Positions 3,658-14,464 of a stretch of 64,000 bases of DNA are shown here, one piece after another. Both the position numbers and the translations under genes were made by a program. The stretch is from an uncultured Bacteroidota bacterium (GTDB lineage Bacteria > Bacteroidota > Bacteroidia > Bacteroidales > GWA2-32-17): contig CAILUD010000078.1 in the NCBI GenBank assembly GCA_903837285.1, forward strand, positions 1 through 64,000, written 5' to 3'. Every line of letters begins with the position of its first letter. Positions within the stretch are counted from its first letter, which is position 1. The notes beneath the pieces are model-generated. The model was not told the DNA's origin. It made no database searches and saw nothing but the letters and a program-made list of their open reading frames with translations.

Positions 3658-4050
3658 CTAATAATTTGCTCTGATTTTTTCAGCTGTTTCTATCATTTGT
3701 TCTTTAGAAAAAACCAACTTTTTTCTTGAGAAATCAATATCCGAAACATTATTAATGGGAATAAGATGTATATGAGCATGAGGAACCTCCAGACCAATAA
3801 CAGCAACTCCAATTCTTTTACATGGAATAGCTTTTTCTATTGCTTTTGCCACTTTTTTAGAAAATAAAGTTAAACCAGATAAAACATTATCTTCAACATT
3901 AAAGATATAATCAATTTCCTTCTTTGGAATTACTAGAGTATGCCCTTCTGCTAAAGGTGACACATCTAAAAATGCCAGAAATTCGTCGGTTTCAGCTATT
4001 TTATAGCAAGGAATTTCGCCGGCTACTATTTTCGAAAAAACAGTTGGCAT
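3658..4050 (-). CDS. HIT-family (histidine triad) nucleotide-binding hydrolase
   Basis: HIT proteins are small homodimeric nucleotide hydrolases or transferases acting on AMP-linked substrates. This one has 130 residues, the usual length. The histidine triad is H91-A-H93-I-H95-L, and the N-terminus has the family signature TVFSKIVAGEIPCYKI with the LDVSPLAEGHTLVIPK strand-helix region. It starts 1 base after the greA stop codon, so both are almost certainly on one transcript. It resembles the HinT/PKCI branch; the physiological substrate is not evident. Confidence 0.94.
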   Translation of the reverse strand: MPTVFSKIVAGEIPCYKIAETDEFLAFLDVSPLAEGHTLVIPKKEIDYIFNVEDNVLSGLTLFSKKVAKAIEKAIPCKRIGVAVIGLEVPHAHIHLIPINNVSDIDFSRKKLVFSKEQMIETAEKIRANY

Positions 4051-4051
4051 A

Positions 4052-4525
4052 TTAACGGGTAATTTCTATTACTTCAAAAGATAATTTTCCGCTTGGAACC
4101 TGAACTTCAATTGAATCGCCAACCTTTTTTCCAAGTAGTCCTTTTGCAATTGGAGTATTAATAGAAATTTTTCCTTCCTTAAAATTAGCTTCGCTTTCTG
4201 AAACTAATGTATATTGCTGAATAGCATTGGTTGCTATGTTCTTAATTTTCACCTTAGATAATATCTGAACTTTAGATTTATCTATGTTAGTATCGTCTAA
4301 AATACGACTGGTTGAGATTAATTCCTGTAGCTTTTTAATTTTCATCTCAAGCATACCTTGCGCTTCTTTAGCTGCGTCATATTCAGCATTTTCCGACAAA
4401 TCACCTTTGTCGCGAGCTTCGGCAATAGCGTTTGAAATAGCAGGACGTTCAACAGTTTTTAACTGAATAAGTTCTGCTTTTAATTTTTCAAAACCTTCTG
4501 GGGTTAGGTACGAAATGTTGCTCAT
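4052..4525 (-). CDS. greA: transcription elongation factor GreA
   Basis: GreA enters the secondary channel of backtracked RNA polymerase and stimulates cleavage of the 3' end of the transcript. The 157-residue length is typical. The N-terminal coiled coil (about residues 8-78) carries the acidic tip DLSENAEYDAAKE with the catalytic D/E pair. The C-terminal FKBP-like domain includes the conserved stretch TPIAKGLLGKKVGDSIEVQVPSG. The ATG is followed by the standard beginning YLTPEGFEKL. The gene leads a two-gene unit with the HIT gene. Its likely -7 box lies upstream of a terminator-like hairpin, so the hairpin may sit in the greA leader. Confidence 0.97.
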   Translation of the reverse strand: MSNISYLTPEGFEKLKAELIQLKTVERPAISNAIAEARDKGDLSENAEYDAAKEAQGMLEMKIKKLQELISTSRILDDTNIDKSKVQILSKVKIKNIATNAIQQYTLVSESEANFKEGKISINTPIAKGLLGKKVGDSIEVQVPSGKLSFEVIEITR

Positions 4526-4549
4526 ACTTCATTAATTTTAAAAACAAAA

Positions 4550-4574
4550 AGAATCCCGAATAGTTCGGGACTCT
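4550..4574 (-). terminator. intrinsic terminator after the porV-like gene, within the putative greA leader
   Basis: An 11-bp stem (4550-4560 with 4564-4574, one G-U pair in the minus-strand RNA) with loop CTA is followed on the minus strand by TTTTTGTTTTT. It lies 28 bases past the porV-like stop codon and 25 bases before the greA start. It is a convincing terminator for the upstream operon. A perfect -7 box for greA is immediately upstream, so initiating greA transcripts would also run through it. Confidence 0.82.
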
Positions 4575-4581
4575 TTAAGTG

Positions 4582-4601: not shown

Positions 4602-5711
4602 TTACAGTGTAATTTTAGCTCCTATTGTGTGAACGCCATTAAATGGGTTTGTGTCGCGATATGAATAATCGAGAGAAAAAGTAGAGCCTTTTTCTTTACT
4701 AATAGGAATTTGAACAGAAGCACCTACCGTTGGACCAGTAAAGCATGTTGTACGTGTATCTAATTTTGTAATTCCATTTTCATAAACATAACCACATCTA
4801 ATCATTACAATTTCTTTAAATGAATATTCTAAACCACCGTGATATTGATCTTTTGTAAATGAATTTGATGTAAAGTTTCCAGCAAAACTAATACGGTGAT
4901 CGCTTCTGATTTTGTCTGCTACGGTATCCACTTTCTGAGCTAAATAAAAATCATACATACCGCCTATCATAATTAACGCAGGTAATTCAAACTCTGCCGA
5001 ACGTGACTCAACTGTCATTACAATATCTTTTGGTGGAACTGCTCCGCGAAATGATAGTCCATCGCCTTTAAAACGCATTGTTGGACCAACATTTTTAATA
5101 GAGATTCCAAAATGTAAGTTATCACGGTTTTTCTTTCCTAATTTATTTTTTCCTAAACCAGTAAGATATTGAATACCCGCATCGAAACAAACTCCAGAAG
5201 CAGATAAATCGGCAGTTTTTTCATTAATGATTTTGACTGCTAAACCGCCATAAATACTGTTTGAAAACTCTTTAGCATATGCCAAAGCGATATTTGTATA
5301 ATTAGGTCGATAAGTACCTATACCACCTTCTGGAATTTCTACAGTTGTAATATCTATGTCGCCAAAATTCATATTCATTAATGAAATACTTAACACTCCA
5401 CTTTCACCAACTTTTTGAGAAAGTCCAAAAGAATTAATATTAATTCCAGTACCTCCTAACCAGTTAGTTCTAGCGAAAATAAATTCAGTTTTCTTAGTGA
5501 AAGCAGTTCCGGCAACATTAAGTTGTAATGCTTCTAAACCTCTTATTCCTGCTGAGTTTGCACCACCCCAACCTGTGCTTCTAGCCCAAGGGTTAATAAG
5601 TAGCTCGGTTGCTCCTGCTTGGCCTGCGCGTTGCTCATTGCCCGCGAAACAGAATGTAGTTGCACTTACTAATGCCGCTACTGCCAGAATTTTAATTGAT
5701 CTTTTTTTCAT
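4602..5711 (-). CDS. PorV/PorQ-family outer-membrane barrel protein
   Basis: The 369-residue protein has a signal peptide (MKKRSIKILAVAALVSATTFCFAG) and a predicted beta-barrel with amphipathic strands. The N-terminal segment after cleavage (AGQAGATELLINPWARSTGWGGANSA) matches the PorV/PorQ family, where GATELLINP.AR is the typical opening. PorV is the T9SS shuttle that collects CTD-bearing cargo at the SprA translocon; paralogues of this family occur outside the core T9SS. It is the third gene of the operon, 35 bases after a large CTD-bearing protein and followed by a strong terminator. A role in surface delivery or anchoring of its neighbour is inferred. It is probably not the core PorV, because porU is absent here. 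Confidence 0.82.
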   Translation of the reverse strand: MKKRSIKILAVAALVSATTFCFAGNEQRAGQAGATELLINPWARSTGWGGANSAGIRGLEALQLNVAGTAFTKKTEFIFARTNWLGGTGININSFGLSQKVGESGVLSISLMNMNFGDIDITTVEIPEGGIGTYRPNYTNIALAYAKEFSNSIYGGLAVKIINEKTADLSASGVCFDAGIQYLTGLGKNKLGKKNRDNLHFGISIKNVGPTMRFKGDGLSFRGAVPPKDIVMTVESRSAEFELPALIMIGGMYDFYLAQKVDTVADKIRSDHRISFAGNFTSNSFTKDQYHGGLEYSFKEIVMIRCGYVYENGITKLDTRTTCFTGPTVGASVQIPISKEKGSTFSLDYSYRDTNPFNGVHTIGAKITL

Positions 5712-5746
5712 GATTCTCCAATATTTTGTTCTAAATCATTTAATTT

Positions 5747-8700
5747 TTAAAAATTGTTTAAATCAAGTGGACGTAATGCACCAAACCATTTAACAATTTT
5801 TTCGCCAAGCGCCTTAGCATCTATATGCACAATATAAACACCACTAGCAATGGTAATGCCGTATTCATTCTTTAAATCCCAATCCTGATATGAAAGCGGA
5901 CTGTCTTTTTTAAATCTTCTGATTAAAGTACCACTAACATTGTAAATGCTAATTGTACAAACTTGTGGAAGATTTGTAATTTTAACTTTATAGTCAAGCT
6001 GCGATTTTTCATAAGCACTGTAACCATAATAAGGATTAGGAACAACTCTAATTAAATCTAACGCATTCTTTGCAGTTTGTTCGTCATTTATAGTTGGAAC
6101 CAAATCTTTCAAACTAAAGTTATAATATGGTAAATCACTATTCTCTACTAAAGCTGGATCGCGTTTAAAATTACCTGTTGCTTTAATATAAGGATTAGCA
6201 ATATTAAAATTAAAAGTAGCATCGCACCTTATAAAAGAATAAGGATCGGAAGCACTAACCTGTACATCTCTTGAAAGCATTGGAATAGAAACCCACATTG
6301 CATTCCACCATAAATTACGTTTAGTATTTCCAGAATTACCTGTTATTGTTATAAACTTTTTATACATATTTAAACCAGCATCGTAACGTGGAATTGTATC
6401 TGAACCAGCTTCGTTATGTCCAAAAACATAAATAAAATGTTTTCCGCCTAGGTAAAAATCACCTGCTAAACCACCAGATTGAAAATACAAATCGGATGCA
6501 TAATTTTTGGTTGGATTCCACATCATATCCCTACCATTTTCTCCTGGATATCTTGAATCTTCTCCAAAAACCATATTTAATCTTTCGCCATTCTCAACAT
6601 CAATAGCATAACCAGGGAACCAACCCATACCTCTTCCAGCAATATAATTAGAGTTATTTGGATTAGTACTATCACCAGCTAAAATAGTATTTGAATTTCC
6701 ATCTTTATCTACCGATGCATGCTTACGTAAATTAAATTTATATGCATTTCCTTCATTTAACCCAGGATTAAATACACTTGTAGCTAAATCGTAATCGCAA
6801 GTTTCAATTACAGGACAACGAGTCCATTTTGACTTATCCTTTGTTATAACAACTTTTACGCTTGACAAACGTCTGGAAATAGAACTCATACTTGAATGTA
6901 AAAGTCCGAAAGAAACACCTGTATTAATTGGATCATAAGTTGCCGACCCAGCTTTATCTTCCATTCCAAACATATATGGAGCCCAAGTTCCATCAATTAC
7001 TTTTTCAAAGAATTGTAGTGCATCGCCAGAAGTAGCACTATTAATATCGTTACAGGTAGAATTATCAGTTACTACAGTTGTTCCACATCTTATCCAGTTT
7101 GGAAAACCACAACCATCATAATCCTGAACAAAATCTATCCACCGTTTTGATAGGTCGGCCCATTCCACACTTGATGATATATATCCATTTTGAAATGCAG
7201 CAGGATCGTTTTTTGCCGGCCATGGAACCTGATTAATTGTAATTGAAATTCCCCATTCTGGAATAATTTGCTCATTCAAATATGTAATTGGGGATGTTGA
7301 CCATACTGTATCTTTCGAATCTACAGCATTCTCTTTAAATGCCATCCATGATGCGGTATTAATATAATAACCTGCAGAAGCAATACCAACATTTGCTGAA
7401 CTAGGTATAAATTTAAGGCCAAAATTCTCAGCAGGAACATTTAATGGGTCAATTACTTTAATTTTAATTGGGCCATATCCGTTTTCGTATTCAACGCTAT
7501 CGGCTCTCCATGGAGAACCTGCCATAATTTTATTTATAGTTTTTTGAGTTAATCTTAGCTCATTATTGCCATTACCTAATCCTTCAATTTGAACAATCTT
7601 TGGACCATCACCAAATGTAGAGTTTAAAATAGTTCCAACATTTGCAGGTGCAGTAATATGAGGAATTTTAGAATAAGTTTTAATTCCTGTTCTACTAGGT
7701 AAATAAGGTTGTTTCTGACCATCTAATGCAGCAGGATCTGTTGGGTCATAGGTTTTATAATTATTATATCCATAAGCAATTGCAACATAATAATATGTTT
7801 TATGGTTTACCAATCGTTTATCGCCAATTGCAAAAGCATCATCAGTTAATGTAAAGGCATGTTGAATACCTACATTTGCACCTTCAACTTTAAGCTTAGG
7901 AACAGAAGCGCCTATTTGATTATCGTAATCATAATTTATAATTCTACTAATAGTGTCTTTCACGTCGCATTGGAAAACCAATCTTGCTTTATCTTCATTT
8001 CCAATATCGGTAACTGATGAACTTTCATCTTTTAACTGGAATACCTGATATCCCTGGAATGTGAAATAAGGTACACAACCAGGAAGAGTTGTTGGACATA
8101 CAATAAAAGGATCTTTCTCTGAATAATCCTCCGGAGTATTCATATAATTATTTGTTCCTTTAACATTAACAATATGAAAAATAAACTCTCTATCAAGTTC
8201 TATAATATCAAGAAGAGGAGCAACAGGACCGTCAATTAATTTAAAGCAATTATCAAATAATCTTTGAGCTTTATCATCTGCACGTTTTACTTCAATAATA
8301 GAAGCTCTTCTGCCTCCTGATGTTGCTCTTGCCCAAACCATACCAGTTGTAATATCGTTTGCTGCACCAGGTTTTAAAGTAAATGGACCAGCGGAGTGAA
8401 CAAATCTATAATCAATTGCAGTATTACCTTCAACAGACCAAGGAGCCTGTGGATTACCACCAGTACCCCATCCACTTGGGTCGGTATCTTCTGGGTAAGC
8501 AAAGTCAGCAGGAGTTCCTGATCCAGTCGAAAATCCTGTGCCACCATAAGTCATTCTAACACCATTTTTCCAATAACCAGTTAAGAATCTATAATATTCT
8601 GTAGCAGTTGACGGATCACTTAATGTACTACCATCATTCTGGAAATACATAAATCTGCGCATTCCCCAACGTTCGTTTCCTGGAACACCATCGCCAAAGT

Positions 8701-9907
8701 TAATACCATTAATACATCCATTATTAACATACTGACTGCTAGTATTTAAAACCCCATTTACCCAAGCTGTAGGTCTATCCTGAGCAATTCCGTTTACTTC
8801 GTATGGATCCATATATGGGCCCTCGAAAAAGTCAACACCAATTGCAGGCGGCTGAGTACCATAAGTAGCTCCATTTCCATCACCATCGCTTTCGTCGCCA
8901 TTATACAAAATACCTAAACCACGTTTCACATCGCAAATTACATAATCGTCAGCTGCATCACCTAAGTCAGCATCTGTCCATACTCCAAAATAACAATCCT
9001 GTAAGATATACGTTGAACGATTAATAAGAGTATAGTTACCAAAGGTCATATTATTTAACTCATCATTTGTTGCAAAAGCAAAAGCCTGAGCTCTGATTTC
9101 CATCCCAATTGATGCACCATCGGTTTCGGTATGAATATTACCACGATCGTTATAAACCCACCACATAGTTTTATCACCATATAATAGATGTTCTCTTAAA
9201 TCTTGGGTAGCGGTACATTCAACAATTTTATCTAAATCGAACCAAGGATATTCTCCGGCCGAAGGTTCATATATATCATTCTCGTTTGCATCATAAAATG
9301 GAGCAAGACTTAAGTCATAATCTGCATCAAAGTTATTTCCTGGCCAATTTGTGATAATATCTGGCACTGAATAACCGGTATATAAAGACATATCACCGCC
9401 TGGAATTGCTTCTGCTCTTTTAAAAGCTCTGAATTCCGAAACCTCTTCTCTTGAAATAATAAAATGCTTATCATATTTTAAACAAGCATCAGAAGTTGTA
9501 GTACCCTGTGCAGCGCCGTCTTTAATAAGCGGACCAGTAAAATAATCCTGTCCGTCGCGATATCTTGCACCAGCAACTCTAAGCTGACCATTTACATCGG
9601 TACCACCAATCCAGATAGCACCAGCATATAATGCCATTTTACCAGAATTTTTTGGTATCTCGTAACTTGCCAAGCGGGTTTGAATATCCCACCACATATC
9701 GCCACCGGTATATATTCTAGCCCTAACATTATTTAAATCCAACTCACTTACCGCAGAAGGTGTTATACATCCGGCAGTAATCGATTTTTCATAATTTGCA
9801 GAACTTTTGTTATGATCGCCAATCCATTTTTTTGCAAACAATGGTTGAGCAAAAACAGCAAAAAGCACTGCTATCGCGAAAATCTTCTTTATTTCCCTTG
9901 TTTTCAT
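5747..9907 (-). CDS. very large secreted surface protein with T9SS/FlgD-like C-terminal domain
   Basis: The 1386-residue protein has a signal peptide (about residues 1-25, ending FAQPLFA). The long extracellular region is rich in W, Y, D and G with many short beta strands; no catalytic motif was recognised. An acidic stretch near residues 200-215 (YDANENDIYEPSAGEYPWFD) resembles a calcium-binding loop. Residues from about 1290 to the end form a T9SS/FlgD-like Ig module: VVPNPYYGYSAY, then ISIYNVSGTLIRRF, then GVYIVHIDAKALGEK. Unlike canonical type A tails it continues past the final strand with KWFGALRPLDLNNF. It lies between a TonB-dependent receptor (18 bases upstream) and a PorV-like barrel (35 bases downstream). 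Its function is unknown; it is probably displayed at the surface. Confidence 0.83.
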   Translation of the reverse strand: MKTREIKKIFAIAVLFAVFAQPLFAKKWIGDHNKSSANYEKSITAGCITPSAVSELDLNNVRARIYTGGDMWWDIQTRLASYEIPKNSGKMALYAGAIWIGGTDVNGQLRVAGARYRDGQDYFTGPLIKDGAAQGTTTSDACLKYDKHFIISREEVSEFRAFKRAEAIPGGDMSLYTGYSVPDIITNWPGNNFDADYDLSLAPFYDANENDIYEPSAGEYPWFDLDKIVECTATQDLREHLLYGDKTMWWVYNDRGNIHTETDGASIGMEIRAQAFAFATNDELNNMTFGNYTLINRSTYILQDCYFGVWTDADLGDAADDYVICDVKRGLGILYNGDESDGDGNGATYGTQPPAIGVDFFEGPYMDPYEVNGIAQDRPTAWVNGVLNTSSQYVNNGCINGINFGDGVPGNERWGMRRFMYFQNDGSTLSDPSTATEYYRFLTGYWKNGVRMTYGGTGFSTGSGTPADFAYPEDTDPSGWGTGGNPQAPWSVEGNTAIDYRFVHSAGPFTLKPGAANDITTGMVWARATSGGRRASIIEVKRADDKAQRLFDNCFKLIDGPVAPLLDIIELDREFIFHIVNVKGTNNYMNTPEDYSEKDPFIVCPTTLPGCVPYFTFQGYQVFQLKDESSSVTDIGNEDKARLVFQCDVKDTISRIINYDYDNQIGASVPKLKVEGANVGIQHAFTLTDDAFAIGDKRLVNHKTYYYVAIAYGYNNYKTYDPTDPAALDGQKQPYLPSRTGIKTYSKIPHITAPANVGTILNSTFGDGPKIVQIEGLGNGNNELRLTQKTINKIMAGSPWRADSVEYENGYGPIKIKVIDPLNVPAENFGLKFIPSSANVGIASAGYYINTASWMAFKENAVDSKDTVWSTSPITYLNEQIIPEWGISITINQVPWPAKNDPAAFQNGYISSSVEWADLSKRWIDFVQDYDGCGFPNWIRCGTTVVTDNSTCNDINSATSGDALQFFEKVIDGTWAPYMFGMEDKAGSATYDPINTGVSFGLLHSSMSSISRRLSSVKVVITKDKSKWTRCPVIETCDYDLATSVFNPGLNEGNAYKFNLRKHASVDKDGNSNTILAGDSTNPNNSNYIAGRGMGWFPGYAIDVENGERLNMVFGEDSRYPGENGRDMMWNPTKNYASDLYFQSGGLAGDFYLGGKHFIYVFGHNEAGSDTIPRYDAGLNMYKKFITITGNSGNTKRNLWWNAMWVSIPMLSRDVQVSASDPYSFIRCDATFNFNIANPYIKATGNFKRDPALVENSDLPYYNFSLKDLVPTINDEQTAKNALDLIRVVPNPYYGYSAYEKSQLDYKVKITNLPQVCTISIYNVSGTLIRRFKKDSPLSYQDWDLKNEYGITIASGVYIVHIDAKALGEKIVKWFGALRPLDLNNF

Positions 9908-9925
9908 ATCTTTATATTTTCTTTA

Positions 9926-12900
9926 TTAGAAACTAAGTTGAATTCCCAAATGAATAGTTCTTGCAAAAGAATAATTATATGGGTGATTAATATACATAGT
10001 GTAATAATCTCTATATGATTGAGGATCATTTTGAGCATTAATACCTGCTTGATTTGCGGCATTATTCAAATATCCATCATCATCAGGATTTCCTGTTTTG
10101 CCATAAACACTTAAAATTTCTTTGGAATTTAATAAGTTATTTATTTCTACATAAAAATTAAGGTTAGCGGTTTTCTTATTATCTCCTTCGCCTTTACCAT
10201 AATTAAGTTCAATATCCCTATCGAGACGCATATTAATTGTAAAACGAGATGGGTTGCGTGAACCATTAATAGAACCTATTAAGTTATTATTATTAAGATC
10301 GCGTTTGCTATATGGAGAACCTGTACCATAATTAAAAGTAAAATTTGCACCAGTATTTTGTAAAATATCTTTACCAGCTATTTTTGGTCCGTTATAAGCA
10401 CGACCACTTGCAAAACGATAATCTAAGTTACCTGTAATAGCGTGACGTTGGTCAAAGTCAAGAGGGATAGTCGCTCTTAAATTTGGCTGACCAGTTTGAA
10501 TAAGTGCTTTACTTGTTTCGGCATTTGAACCGGTACCGTTAGCAAATTGTAAGGTATAACTTAATCTGAAAGTTATATTACCAGTACGTCTTAAGTCATA
10601 TGCAAGTGTTAAACCTTTTACTGTACCAAAGTCAATGTTAGTATAAGTCATATATTTAAATGGATAAGCACCATAAATATATTGTACCTGAACCATATCT
10701 CTCATTTCGCGATAGAAAGTTGAGAATTTAATTGAAGAGGTATTATTTAATTTCTGTTGGAAACCAAGTTCATAATCAATAGTTTTTTCTGTTTTCAAAT
10801 CAGGATTATTTAATGGCTCGTCTCCTTGTTTTTGAATATATAGATATTGAATAGGATTCATCCGAACTAAATTACTAGGACGTTTTGTAAGCACATCGTA
10901 ATGAGCAAAGAATAATGCAACGTCAGACACAGGGAATGAAAATGCAATACGTGGCATAACATTTATCTGAGGTTCATAATCTTTAAAAGCATTAACGCTT
11001 AATTCGCTTCCTGGGTTAACTAATACTGGATGCATTTGACTATTATCAGAAATTAAAGTTGGATCGTTAACCTGTGTTCCGTTAAAATCGTACCATTTTG
11101 CATCTGTAGGACTAACACCTTCGCGATAACCTTTAATAGAAGTTCCTGCAACATTTGTATATACAACTGCATCTTCGGAAAGATTAGTTGGATGAATAAA
11201 ATTTGGATTTAACGAAGCAGAAACTTCACCTAATTTTTTTGTTTCATATAATGAATAAGGATCTTTTAATACCATTTGATTTGCATCAAAACGATCAATT
11301 CTAACCCCTACGTTAAAAACTAAATCGTTGAAAGCAAATTTATCCTGAATATAACCAGCACCATAAATAGGCTGAAAAGAAGGAACTTCACGGGTAAATC
11401 TTCCGTTTTCGTCTTTTGCAGTTAAAAAATCGTTAAAACTTGGTTTTGAAGTAAGTTTTTTACCTGTATGATCAAAGCCATAATAACTAACAAGTTCGTT
11501 ATCTAACAACTCTGGAGCAGAAAAGAAATCAATTGAGAAAATCGATGGGTCATATGAATCAAAGTCGATCCAGTTTGTTCCATTAATTGGCATGCCAAGA
11601 GCTTCTCTAAGTTTTTCGTCAAACTGAAATTGTGAAGAAGCATTATACCTACGATTATACCATATTGTATCCTGAAAAATACCATTAGCATCGTAAACAA
11701 AATTAGGATTACTAAAATCTAATTCCTGAATATGGAAATTAGTGAATTTACGACCATAATCCCATAAACCCATTGGTGCAACACCATAATATCTGTCATC
11801 ACGTTGCTCGAATTCAAAACCTAATGAAATTTCGTGATCTTTAATATCTGCTGATCCTGATGCAGATAGTCTGAATTGTGAATTGTCTATTTTATTGTAA
11901 GAACTATAAGGTGTACCAGGACTATTAAATAATCCATAAATATTATCAGGTGCCTGACCATTAAGTAAACCACCACCATTTTGAACTAATTCAGCATTTC
12001 GGTACATTCCGCTATTTGGTCCGTAAAGACTATAATATGAACTTGTATAACTAGCTAAATCGGGATTAATATCCGATGCTTCAAAAGCATAGTTTACATC
12101 GGCATAACCATTATGTTGAAAAACTCCTGTTGCATATCCGGTAATTGTATCGGTATAATCGTAAGAATTAATTTTTGTAGTTCTAAATTTTCCTACATAA
12201 CCATATTTAAACAAATCATCTTTATTATCTCTATCCTGAACTGTTCTGTTAAACTTTTGATAATCGACCTGTATTTGATAATATGCATTTTTAATAAGTG
12301 CAGTTGCATTATCTTTTTCGTTTTCACTTTGAAATTTTTGTGTTAAACGAGCATAACCACGCATAGTTCTGTTTAATACTTCGCCATTATTTTTTGAATT
12401 GAACCAGGAATTAGCATAAATAAAATCTCTGTATTTATTATAATCGAAAGTACCACCAAATGTAAGGTTAATGTTTCGTGAAGGTTTAACATCTATTTTT
12501 CCTGTTATCATCATTTGTGATGCTTCAGCATCATTTCTTGCTTTTATATTATTGAAATCTTCTTTTCTAAGAAACTCAGAATTTAATATAGTACCAAAAC
12601 CAGCATCGTTAGTGCGGTAAGGATTTGCAAGCAACTCTTCTGTTACACCATCTTTAGCTGTCCACCAACCAATTGGCGAAGGAGTACCATCTTTTTCGTA
12701 ATTAACACTTGCCGAAACAAAAAATCCAGCAATTACATTTTTCTTGACTTTTGTTGAATCATATTTATCAACTGTTTTTTTAGAAAAGAGTGGACCAGTT
12801 ACCATTACTTCTGCTAAGTTAAAATCATAAGCATCTAAAAAATGTGATGTTACTAATTCAACAGCGCCATAAATTTCGCGAGAAGGCTCTTTAGTTGTTA

Positions 12901-13570
12901 CACTAATAATACCACCGGTAACATCGCCATATTTTGCAGGCACACCACCTGTAATAACCTCAACCTGAGATGTTGCTGATTTAGGCATACTTTTACTTGC
13001 ACCACCAGAAACCTTAACACCATCAATATAATAAACAGTTGCCTCTGATCGGGAACCACGAATACTTCCTACTTCTCCACGCTCGGAATAAACACCACCA
13101 ACTGTTGTTGCAACAGCTTCGGCACTTCTTCCTGGCATTTTAGAAATTTCTTCTGAAGTTACAGCACCTCCAGTAGAAGTTTGATCCTTACTGATAAGTG
13201 GAACTTTATAATCTTTTACTTCTATTTCCCCTAATTGTTGAACAGAAGATGAAATTTTAAAATCCTGGAAAGTGATTTTTCCAGCCATAATTTTTAAGCC
13301 TTTATATTGTAGAGGATGATACCCTACATATGAAGCCTTAACATCATAAACACCAGCTGGAATAGGTTTAATTACAAACTTTCCATCAAAGTCGGTCATA
13401 CCGCCGGTTATTACCTGTCCGTTTGACTCAACACTTACGTTAGCAAATGCAATAGCCTCGCCATTGCCTGCATCAAGTACTTTTCCTTGTAATGTTCCAG
13501 ATTGTGCAAAAACACCCGAAGAAAAGATAGCAGCAGCTAAAACGAATAAAATCTTTCGCAACATAATCAT
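9926..13570 (-). CDS. TonB-dependent outer-membrane receptor with carboxypeptidase-regulatory-like N-terminus
   Basis: The 1214-residue protein has a signal peptide (cleavage near FAQSG, about residue 23). A CarboxypepD_reg-like beta-sandwich follows (about 25-110: GTLQGKVLDAGNGEAIAFANV). The plug domain runs from about 130 to 235, with VYYIDGVKVSGG and ITGGVPAKYGDVTGGIISVTT. The rest is a 22-strand-type barrel ending in the aromatic FARTIHLGIQLSF. Such receptors import bulky ligands using TonB energy. No SusD partner follows; instead the operon continues with a giant CTD protein and a PorV-like barrel. The start MIML could also be the Met at residue 3. The ligand is unknown. Confidence 0.93.
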   Translation of the reverse strand: MIMLRKILFVLAAAIFSSGVFAQSGTLQGKVLDAGNGEAIAFANVSVESNGQVITGGMTDFDGKFVIKPIPAGVYDVKASYVGYHPLQYKGLKIMAGKITFQDFKISSSVQQLGEIEVKDYKVPLISKDQTSTGGAVTSEEISKMPGRSAEAVATTVGGVYSERGEVGSIRGSRSEATVYYIDGVKVSGGASKSMPKSATSQVEVITGGVPAKYGDVTGGIISVTTKEPSREIYGAVELVTSHFLDAYDFNLAEVMVTGPLFSKKTVDKYDSTKVKKNVIAGFFVSASVNYEKDGTPSPIGWWTAKDGVTEELLANPYRTNDAGFGTILNSEFLRKEDFNNIKARNDAEASQMMITGKIDVKPSRNINLTFGGTFDYNKYRDFIYANSWFNSKNNGEVLNRTMRGYARLTQKFQSENEKDNATALIKNAYYQIQVDYQKFNRTVQDRDNKDDLFKYGYVGKFRTTKINSYDYTDTITGYATGVFQHNGYADVNYAFEASDINPDLASYTSSYYSLYGPNSGMYRNAELVQNGGGLLNGQAPDNIYGLFNSPGTPYSSYNKIDNSQFRLSASGSADIKDHEISLGFEFEQRDDRYYGVAPMGLWDYGRKFTNFHIQELDFSNPNFVYDANGIFQDTIWYNRRYNASSQFQFDEKLREALGMPINGTNWIDFDSYDPSIFSIDFFSAPELLDNELVSYYGFDHTGKKLTSKPSFNDFLTAKDENGRFTREVPSFQPIYGAGYIQDKFAFNDLVFNVGVRIDRFDANQMVLKDPYSLYETKKLGEVSASLNPNFIHPTNLSEDAVVYTNVAGTSIKGYREGVSPTDAKWYDFNGTQVNDPTLISDNSQMHPVLVNPGSELSVNAFKDYEPQINVMPRIAFSFPVSDVALFFAHYDVLTKRPSNLVRMNPIQYLYIQKQGDEPLNNPDLKTEKTIDYELGFQQKLNNTSSIKFSTFYREMRDMVQVQYIYGAYPFKYMTYTNIDFGTVKGLTLAYDLRRTGNITFRLSYTLQFANGTGSNAETSKALIQTGQPNLRATIPLDFDQRHAITGNLDYRFASGRAYNGPKIAGKDILQNTGANFTFNYGTGSPYSKRDLNNNNLIGSINGSRNPSRFTINMRLDRDIELNYGKGEGDNKKTANLNFYVEINNLLNSKEILSVYGKTGNPDDDGYLNNAANQAGINAQNDPQSYRDYYTMYINHPYNYSFARTIHLGIQLSF

Positions 13571-14005: not shown

Positions 14006-14464
14006 CTAATCCGAAACCGCTTTTTTCTTCCATGGCCAACGAATTTTTGTATCGGAGAGCTTAGGTAATTTAATTTTCTTTCGTGAAAGACGTTTAATTT
14101 TTGTTTCGGTATGTTTATGGCGGTTATGTCTTTCGGCAATTCTCAAATTCTTTCTCATTCTTTTAACTACCTTCCTATTAGTGCCTTTTTCTTTGGGTTT
14201 ATCGACCTTTTTCCAATATTTCTTCTGAGTTTTTTTCTCATTTCTAAAAGATTTTTTAGAATCTTTTTTACTTTTTCGAACCGCTTTTTTAGCTGGATTT
14301 TTCTTAAAAAGTCCTTTTAAGTGAATATTCCATTCCAGTTTTTTTTCGGGAGCCCTATCAACTGAATATGGTTGTGCAATGGTAATATTAGACCCAAATA
14401 CTAGTAAAATAGATATAAGAGCTAATAGAAATGAAATTTTATTTACCTTTGTATTACAATTCAT
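14006..14464 (-). CDS. small exported Lys/Arg-rich protein of unknown function
   Basis: The 152-residue protein has a clear signal sequence (hydrophobic ISFLLALISILLVFGSNI, cleavage near IAQP, about residue 30). The mature part of about 122 residues contains roughly 47 lysines and arginines in KK-x(2-4)-KK patterns and many aromatic or His residues, so it is strongly basic. I recognise no family. Basic exported proteins can bind nucleic acid, polyanionic polysaccharide or peptidoglycan; that is only inference. It is divergent from the Rieske-like lipoprotein gene with just 10 bases between start codons. A low-complexity shadow frame is possible, but signal peptide plus promoter favour a real gene. 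Confidence 0.68.
   Translation of the reverse strand: MNCNTKVNKISFLLALISILLVFGSNITIAQPYSVDRAPEKKLEWNIHLKGLFKKNPAKKAVRKSKKDSKKSFRNEKKTQKKYWKKVDKPKEKGTNRKVVKRMRKNLRIAERHNRHKHTETKIKRLSRKKIKLPKLSDTKIRWPWKKKAVSD
14444..14451 (+). promoter_or_regulatory. -7 box for the Rieske-like lipoprotein gene, inside the divergent gene
   Basis: TACCTTTG on the plus strand is a perfect TAnnTTTG match, 23 bases before the ATG at 14475. It lies within the first codons of the minus-strand basic-protein gene. Confidence 0.5.

Follow-up and report, generated by a model that had tools for sequence, protein, structure and literature searches.

T-G-V, a recurrent gene unit of a TonB-dependent receptor, a large secreted protein and a PorV/PorQ-family barrel in Bacteroidota, as a candidate uptake module assembled with T9SS help

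Organization of the T-G-V locus

The window, i.e., the whole stretch of 64,000 nucleotides that was analyzed, is part of a 4.29 Mb assembly of an uncultured Bacteroidota bacterium. Its minus strand carries three neighboring genes, T followed by G and then V. T (9926-13570, minus strand; assigned by open reading frame, Pfam and solved-structure profile) encodes a TonB-dependent receptor of 1214 aa with a signal peptide, CarboxypepD_reg and Plug domains. G (5747-9907, minus strand; open reading frame and family alignment) encodes a secreted protein of 1386 aa with a type A-like/FlgD-like C-terminal domain (CTD) followed by a C-terminal extension, and V (4602-5711, minus strand; NF033709, 6h3i profile and tree) a PorV/PorQ-family outer-membrane barrel of 369 aa that falls into its own clade. 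The three-gene layout of the earlier note was confirmed, with all open reading frames at these positions. T and G are separated by 18 bp and G and V by 35 bp, and from this tight spacing the three genes are probably co-transcribed. V is followed by a terminator-like hairpin of 13 pairs with a subsequent T-rich tail (4548-4576, minus strand); as eight terminator-like sites were found in the region compared to 5.8 expected, this hairpin is weak evidence if taken alone. Past the hairpin, downstream of the module, greA and a HIT-family gene are located at 3658-4525, and they are conserved at this place in many genomes of the same class. As read from the sequences, T, G and V each appear to start with a Sec signal peptide, and a lipobox is seen in none of them. 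Upstream of T and on the same strand, a Lys/Arg-rich, secreted-looking small protein of 152 aa that belongs to no Pfam family is encoded at 14006-14464.

The receptor T

T matches PF13620 (55.4 bits), PF13715 (49.9 bits) and the Plug family PF07715 (30.4 bits, cut-off 23.9) above the cut-offs. In its barrel region the TonB-receptor models of NCBIfam are matched below their cut-offs, and solved TonB-dependent receptors are matched by profile. With a Plug domain and a receptor barrel, T is classified by its sequence as a TonB-dependent receptor. The best solved-structure match of the T profile is a SusC homologue, while no SusC/RagA model is found among the NCBIfam matches of T at E up to 0.1. 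A SusD-type family was detected neither in the eight neighboring proteins scanned nor in G or V. The earlier note had described T as a SusC-like receptor without SusD; the absence of SusD holds for the neighbors scanned, and the term SusC-like applies only loosely, by structure match and not by model. T-G-V resembles SusC-SusD in having a TonB receptor with an N-terminal CarboxypepD_reg domain, a co-encoded surface partner and, for some paralogous copies, glycan-degradation genes nearby. It differs from SusC-SusD in that a SusC/RagA match and SusD are missing and in that T is partnered with a CTD protein of very large size and a PorV-family barrel instead of a surface lipoprotein.

The barrel V forms a separate clade of the PorV/PorQ family

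V passes the PorV/PorQ family model NF033709 with 136.9 bits at a cut-off of 90, which bears out the family assignment made in the earlier note, and all 29 aligned relatives of V match this model as well. V is not a true PorV (NF033710, 60.6 bits vs. 250), not a PorQ (NF033711, 53.7 bits vs. 220) and not a PorV2 (NF052325, 40.1 bits vs. 325). The PorP/SprF model TIGR03519 gave no match for V at E up to 0.1, and four of the 29 relatives match it weakly. In the phylogenetic tree core V (support 100/99), true PorV (100/99), PorQ (100/99) and PorV2 (100/96) are all separated from each other, and 36 of the 40 barrels from other modules form one further group with lower support (83/92). The same genome also encodes the true PorV (C167), PorQ (C8) and PorV2 (C39) as well as SprA. 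A fifth, short PorV/PorQ-like barrel of 283 aa (G000:C203:25651-26385, L013) passes none of the named cut-offs and has a very long branch in the tree.

Among solved structures, the V profile matches Flavobacterium johnsoniae PorV (6h3i) with E 2.3e-20, well ahead of TodX, and no BAM chains are among its matches. In PorV, the main chain of N87 and F115 holds the conserved lysine of the CTD (PMC10994853); in a by-eye reading of the alignment, N87 and F115 align with stretches that are kept in V (DI..N and FGDI). TodX and TbuX are also matched by the V profile, weakly (E 6e-4). This is compatible with V being a FadL/TodX-like channel that acts with T on a small or hydrophobic ligand, in which case G would be ordinary T9SS cargo that uses the general PorV and is merely co-regulated. 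We consider this unlikely, since no other structure is matched nearly as well as PorV, and further evidence on both sides is given below.

The passenger and the C-terminal domain of G

Orthologues of G are present throughout the phylum Bacteroidota. No match to a solved structure was obtained for the large passenger of G outside the CTD, and the G of the window contains no Pfam domain. Its N-terminal region (residues 55-529; 8321-9745, minus strand) is 48% identical to a part of the secreted C228 protein of the same genome, and the C40 protein is related more weakly. Both of these proteins end in standard type A CTDs, i.e., in KKVIVVK and TKLVLH, respectively, and the CTD of the C228 protein reaches 44 bits for TIGR04183. 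The C228 protein (L015:1138-3738) and the C40 protein (L016:574-3675) combine a propeller-like N-terminal part, which is of the Ycf48 type in L015, with a G-like domain and the standard type A CTD. These proteins join a G-like domain to other parts, which marks the domain of G as a mobile module.

The CTD of G comprises the last 105 residues (5750-6064, minus strand) and was assigned as PorZ/PorU/FlgD-like by profile and NCBIfam. It stays below the type A cut-offs, with 14.0 bits vs. 27 for PF18962 and 21.3 bits vs. 23 for TIGR04183, and G was therefore rejected as standard type A cargo. It was also rejected as type B cargo, as the G of the window does not match PF13585; three of 29 relatives match this family weakly. 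The best NCBIfam match is the PorZ C-terminal region (E 3e-6), and the family profile of the CTD shows weak similarity to the solved structures of PorZ (5m11, E 0.002), FlgD (E 0.05) and PorU (6za2, E 0.11). The T9SS/FlgD-like end described in the earlier note is thus a type A-like, sub-threshold CTD that is nearest to those of PorZ and PorU. PorZ and PorU are T9SS proteins in which the CTD is retained and not cleaved, so that they stay on PorQ or PorV (PMC10202324; PMC11285876).

It was reported that type A CTDs are all recognized by PorV (PMC12618676), and in the genome studied here the proteins with a type A CTD number at least 150. In comparison to PorV and type A cargo (T9SS translocon, PDB 6H3I; PMC10994853), V is likewise a member of the PorV/PorQ family with a profile nearest to PorV, and in G a signal peptide is combined with a type A-like CTD in which the lysine near the end is kept. 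In contrast to that system, V fails the PorV equivalog, forms a separate clade and is tied to one neighboring cargo, and the CTD of G does not reach the type A cut-offs and carries nine extra residues. The attachment complexes PorZ-PorQ and PorU-PorV (PMC10202324; PMC11285876) are similar in that we propose for G and V, too, an uncleaved CTD that sits on a PorV-family barrel, and in that the CTDs of PorZ and PorU are the most similar to that of G. Unlike PorZ-PorQ, the T-G-V unit includes a TonB receptor, and this genome encodes the true PorQ by a gene of its own.

A nine-residue tail distinguishes core G proteins

The CTD profile of G runs on beyond the end of PorZ. By comparison of orthologues, G has a nine-residue extension, LRPLDLNNF (5750-5776, minus strand), past the PorZ-like CTD end, where PorZ has one and PorU three extra residues. 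This extension of the end of G by KWFGALRPLDLNNF, which had been pointed out in the earlier note, is no accident, as the tail is exactly nine residues long in 130 of the 131 scored core G orthologues and ends in F in 103 of the 131. The single exception is taken to be a G that is truncated by the contig end (L205).

The CTDs of the paralogous modules, termed class II (n = 39), lack the nine-residue tail and end in GKFAVIK or similar; two of them score as long only through a loop, and both end in GKFVVIK. In L258, two CTD genes adjoining a core-type V carry the nine-residue tail. As the tail is found with core V, including L258, and is absent from the 39 class II CTDs, the type of tail corresponds to the type of V. 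A conserved tail of its own that tracks the V type, on a CTD below the type A cut-offs, argues against G being ordinary cargo of the general PorV next to a FadL/TodX-like channel.

Conservation and linkage of the unit

The regions around G were compared in relatives and in genomes of other classes. In 46 of the 60 G occurrences, G is preceded by T and followed by V on one strand; nine are cut by a contig end, and the other five include the paralogue regions L110-L112, which were chosen on purpose, and L133, in which V was missed in the picking of open reading frames and is present by a later search. Among named loci, T-G-V was found in 57/80 and G without adjacent T or V in about 11/80; these 80 are the best 80 matches listed from a genome scan, with close relatives over-represented. 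Many of the named relatives are labeled Bacteroidales or Flavobacteriales. The three-gene order, for which the earlier note had proposed a check of its recurrence, is thus found across Bacteroidota and is not unique to this genome.

Of 395 genomes sampled from the phylum, 150 contain G and 304 contain SprA, the T9SS translocon; SprA is present in each of the 150 genomes with G (Fisher p 7e-23, not corrected for relatedness). Strong V matches (E <= 1e-80) were obtained in 105 of the 395 genomes and all 105 also have a G match, so V does not co-vary with unrelated genes; 45 G-positive genomes are without V at this threshold. Since the order recurs and every genome with a strong V match also has a G match, there is good support for cargo and barrel forming a dedicated module at the genetic level. 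The second of these facts also speaks against V as a FadL/TodX-like channel.

It was described that type B CTD cargo has a cognate PorP/SprF barrel, the gene of which is located downstream of the cargo gene as for SprB/SprF (PMC12618676; PMC9143113). T-G-V is similar to this system in that an own FadL-like barrel gene directly follows the cargo gene and in that orphan cargo exists too. It is different in that V belongs to the PorV/PorQ family, the CTD of G is not type B, and the third gene encodes a TonB receptor and no PorE-like protein. By analogy to orphan type B cargo, it is possible that G proteins without adjacent T and V are orphan cargo sharing one V. G without adjacent T and V was observed in L153, L155, L175, L176 and others, several of which originate from Crocinitomicaceae, Cryomorphaceae or Fluviicola.

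Core V is single-copy in 79 of the 105 V-positive genomes. A core copy that is mostly single, vertically inherited and without metabolic neighbors would also fit an envelope-assembly or T9SS accessory complex that is no importer. As precedent, in the Bacteroidota BAM complex the FadL homologue BamG holds the large surface subunit BamH (PMC12578637). T-G-V and BamG-BamH have in common a FadL-homologous barrel that holds, or in the case of V would hold, a large extracellular protein; they differ in that V is nearest to PorV by profile and has no BAM structure match, and in that the unit contains a TonB receptor. However, core V is present in 105 of the 304 T9SS-positive genomes, and since it is missing from most of them, it is not a general part of the T9SS or of BAM. 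Together with the paralogous copies described next, which reach up to 11 and in part lie beside glycan genes and thus fit uptake better, this makes an accessory complex quite improbable.

Paralogous modules in other classes

Profiles of V, the CTD and T were searched in 12 genomes of other classes. V is located directly downstream for 43 of the 45 CTDs of at least 70 bits, and up to 11 such pairs occur per genome. In a second arrangement the CTD gene is located 6-9 kb upstream and T adjoins V where this was read (L253, L256). Neighbors of some class II modules are GH53, CBM20, SBP_bac_1, a LacI-type binding protein and a SASA esterase. These neighbors, which were hand-picked from a few class II loci with no statistic attached, are suggestive of a link of the module to glycan degradation. 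Against a function in uptake, the window's own module has no enzyme neighbors.

Co-divergence of T, G and V

Co-divergence was analyzed over 36 adjacent modules using the nearest T. For all pairs among V, CTD, passenger and T, the distances are correlated at 0.70-0.84. In partial rank correlations V-CTD amounts to 0.15 and V-T to 0.44, which is the largest value. This shows that T-G-V is inherited together as a cassette, and co-divergence singles out no contact between V and the CTD. That the partial coupling is largest for V and T, and that V stays beside T where the CTD gene lies 6-9 kb upstream, are further points in favor of a FadL/TodX-like channel.

Neighborhood by history alone, with no joint function of T, G and V, has to be considered as well, as the conservation of greA and the HIT-family gene as neighbors in the same class demonstrates that long-term synteny alone does occur here. 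However, the T-G-V unit is kept in classes in which greA and HIT do not adjoin it, its parts diverge together, and its many duplications as a unit largely refute this explanation, which is hardly credible.

Proposed function of T-G-V

From the gene unit, its conservation, the linkage of G and V, the separate V clade and the tail, we infer that V physically carries or anchors G and that the module acts in import. The reading that we favor, and hold to be slightly more probable than not, is that T-G-V acts as a conserved uptake module of the outer membrane and that the T9SS helps to assemble it, with V as the cognate shuttle or anchor that would hold G beside T. Cognate pairs of type B cargo and PorP/SprF, PorZ on PorQ, and BamG with its large surface subunit are precedents for this reading. 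G would cross the outer membrane via the SprA translocon with its type A-like CTD as the putative signal. V, as the cognate shuttle, would then bind the uncleaved CTD and keep G on the surface, in the same way as PorZ is kept by PorQ and PorU by PorV, and the conserved nine-residue tail is a candidate lock on V. Positioned beside T, G may capture a ligand that T would import, as suggested by the gene unit and by the glycan-degradation genes next to some paralogues. The capture subunit would thus be delivered by the T9SS instead of being a SusD lipoprotein. The recurrence of T-G-V suggests that a capture protein can be mounted on an importer in a way not described so far. The earlier note had suggested a specialized surface-delivery or uptake module; its dedicated genetic unit of cargo and barrel stands, and carriage of G by V and import would follow from the sequence-based reading outlined here. 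The earlier note had also placed the module outside the main T9SS picture, and indeed no paper describing T-G-V was found in a literature search without preprints and most subscription papers.

More tentatively, and with somewhat less confidence than we give to the uptake module itself, T-G-V could represent a further class of T9SS cargo across Bacteroidota, in which type A-like CTDs with a nine-residue tail are locked on a dedicated PorV paralogue and, together with the TonB receptor, constitute an importer with a T9SS-delivered capture subunit; related modules, multiplied in some lineages, may stand in for SusCD. If this is true, the notion that all type A cargo uses one general PorV (PMC12618676) would be incomplete, and many Bacteroidota would possess PorV paralogues with one cargo each. 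The T9SS would then build importers besides secreting enzymes and adhesins. Since tailed and tail-less CTDs occur in matched sets of cargo and barrel, they would furthermore allow a natural test of the reason for which certain T9SS domains are cleaved while others are retained.

Further genes next to core V were observed in individual regions. GWxTD-domain proteins are encoded just 3' of core V in two genomes of distant classes (L134:9717-11249 and L131:9773-11131). In family f81, a protein that combines multihaem cytochrome c motifs and TPR repeats in one polypeptide is encoded downstream of core V (L119:2149-4335 and L122:1492-3726).
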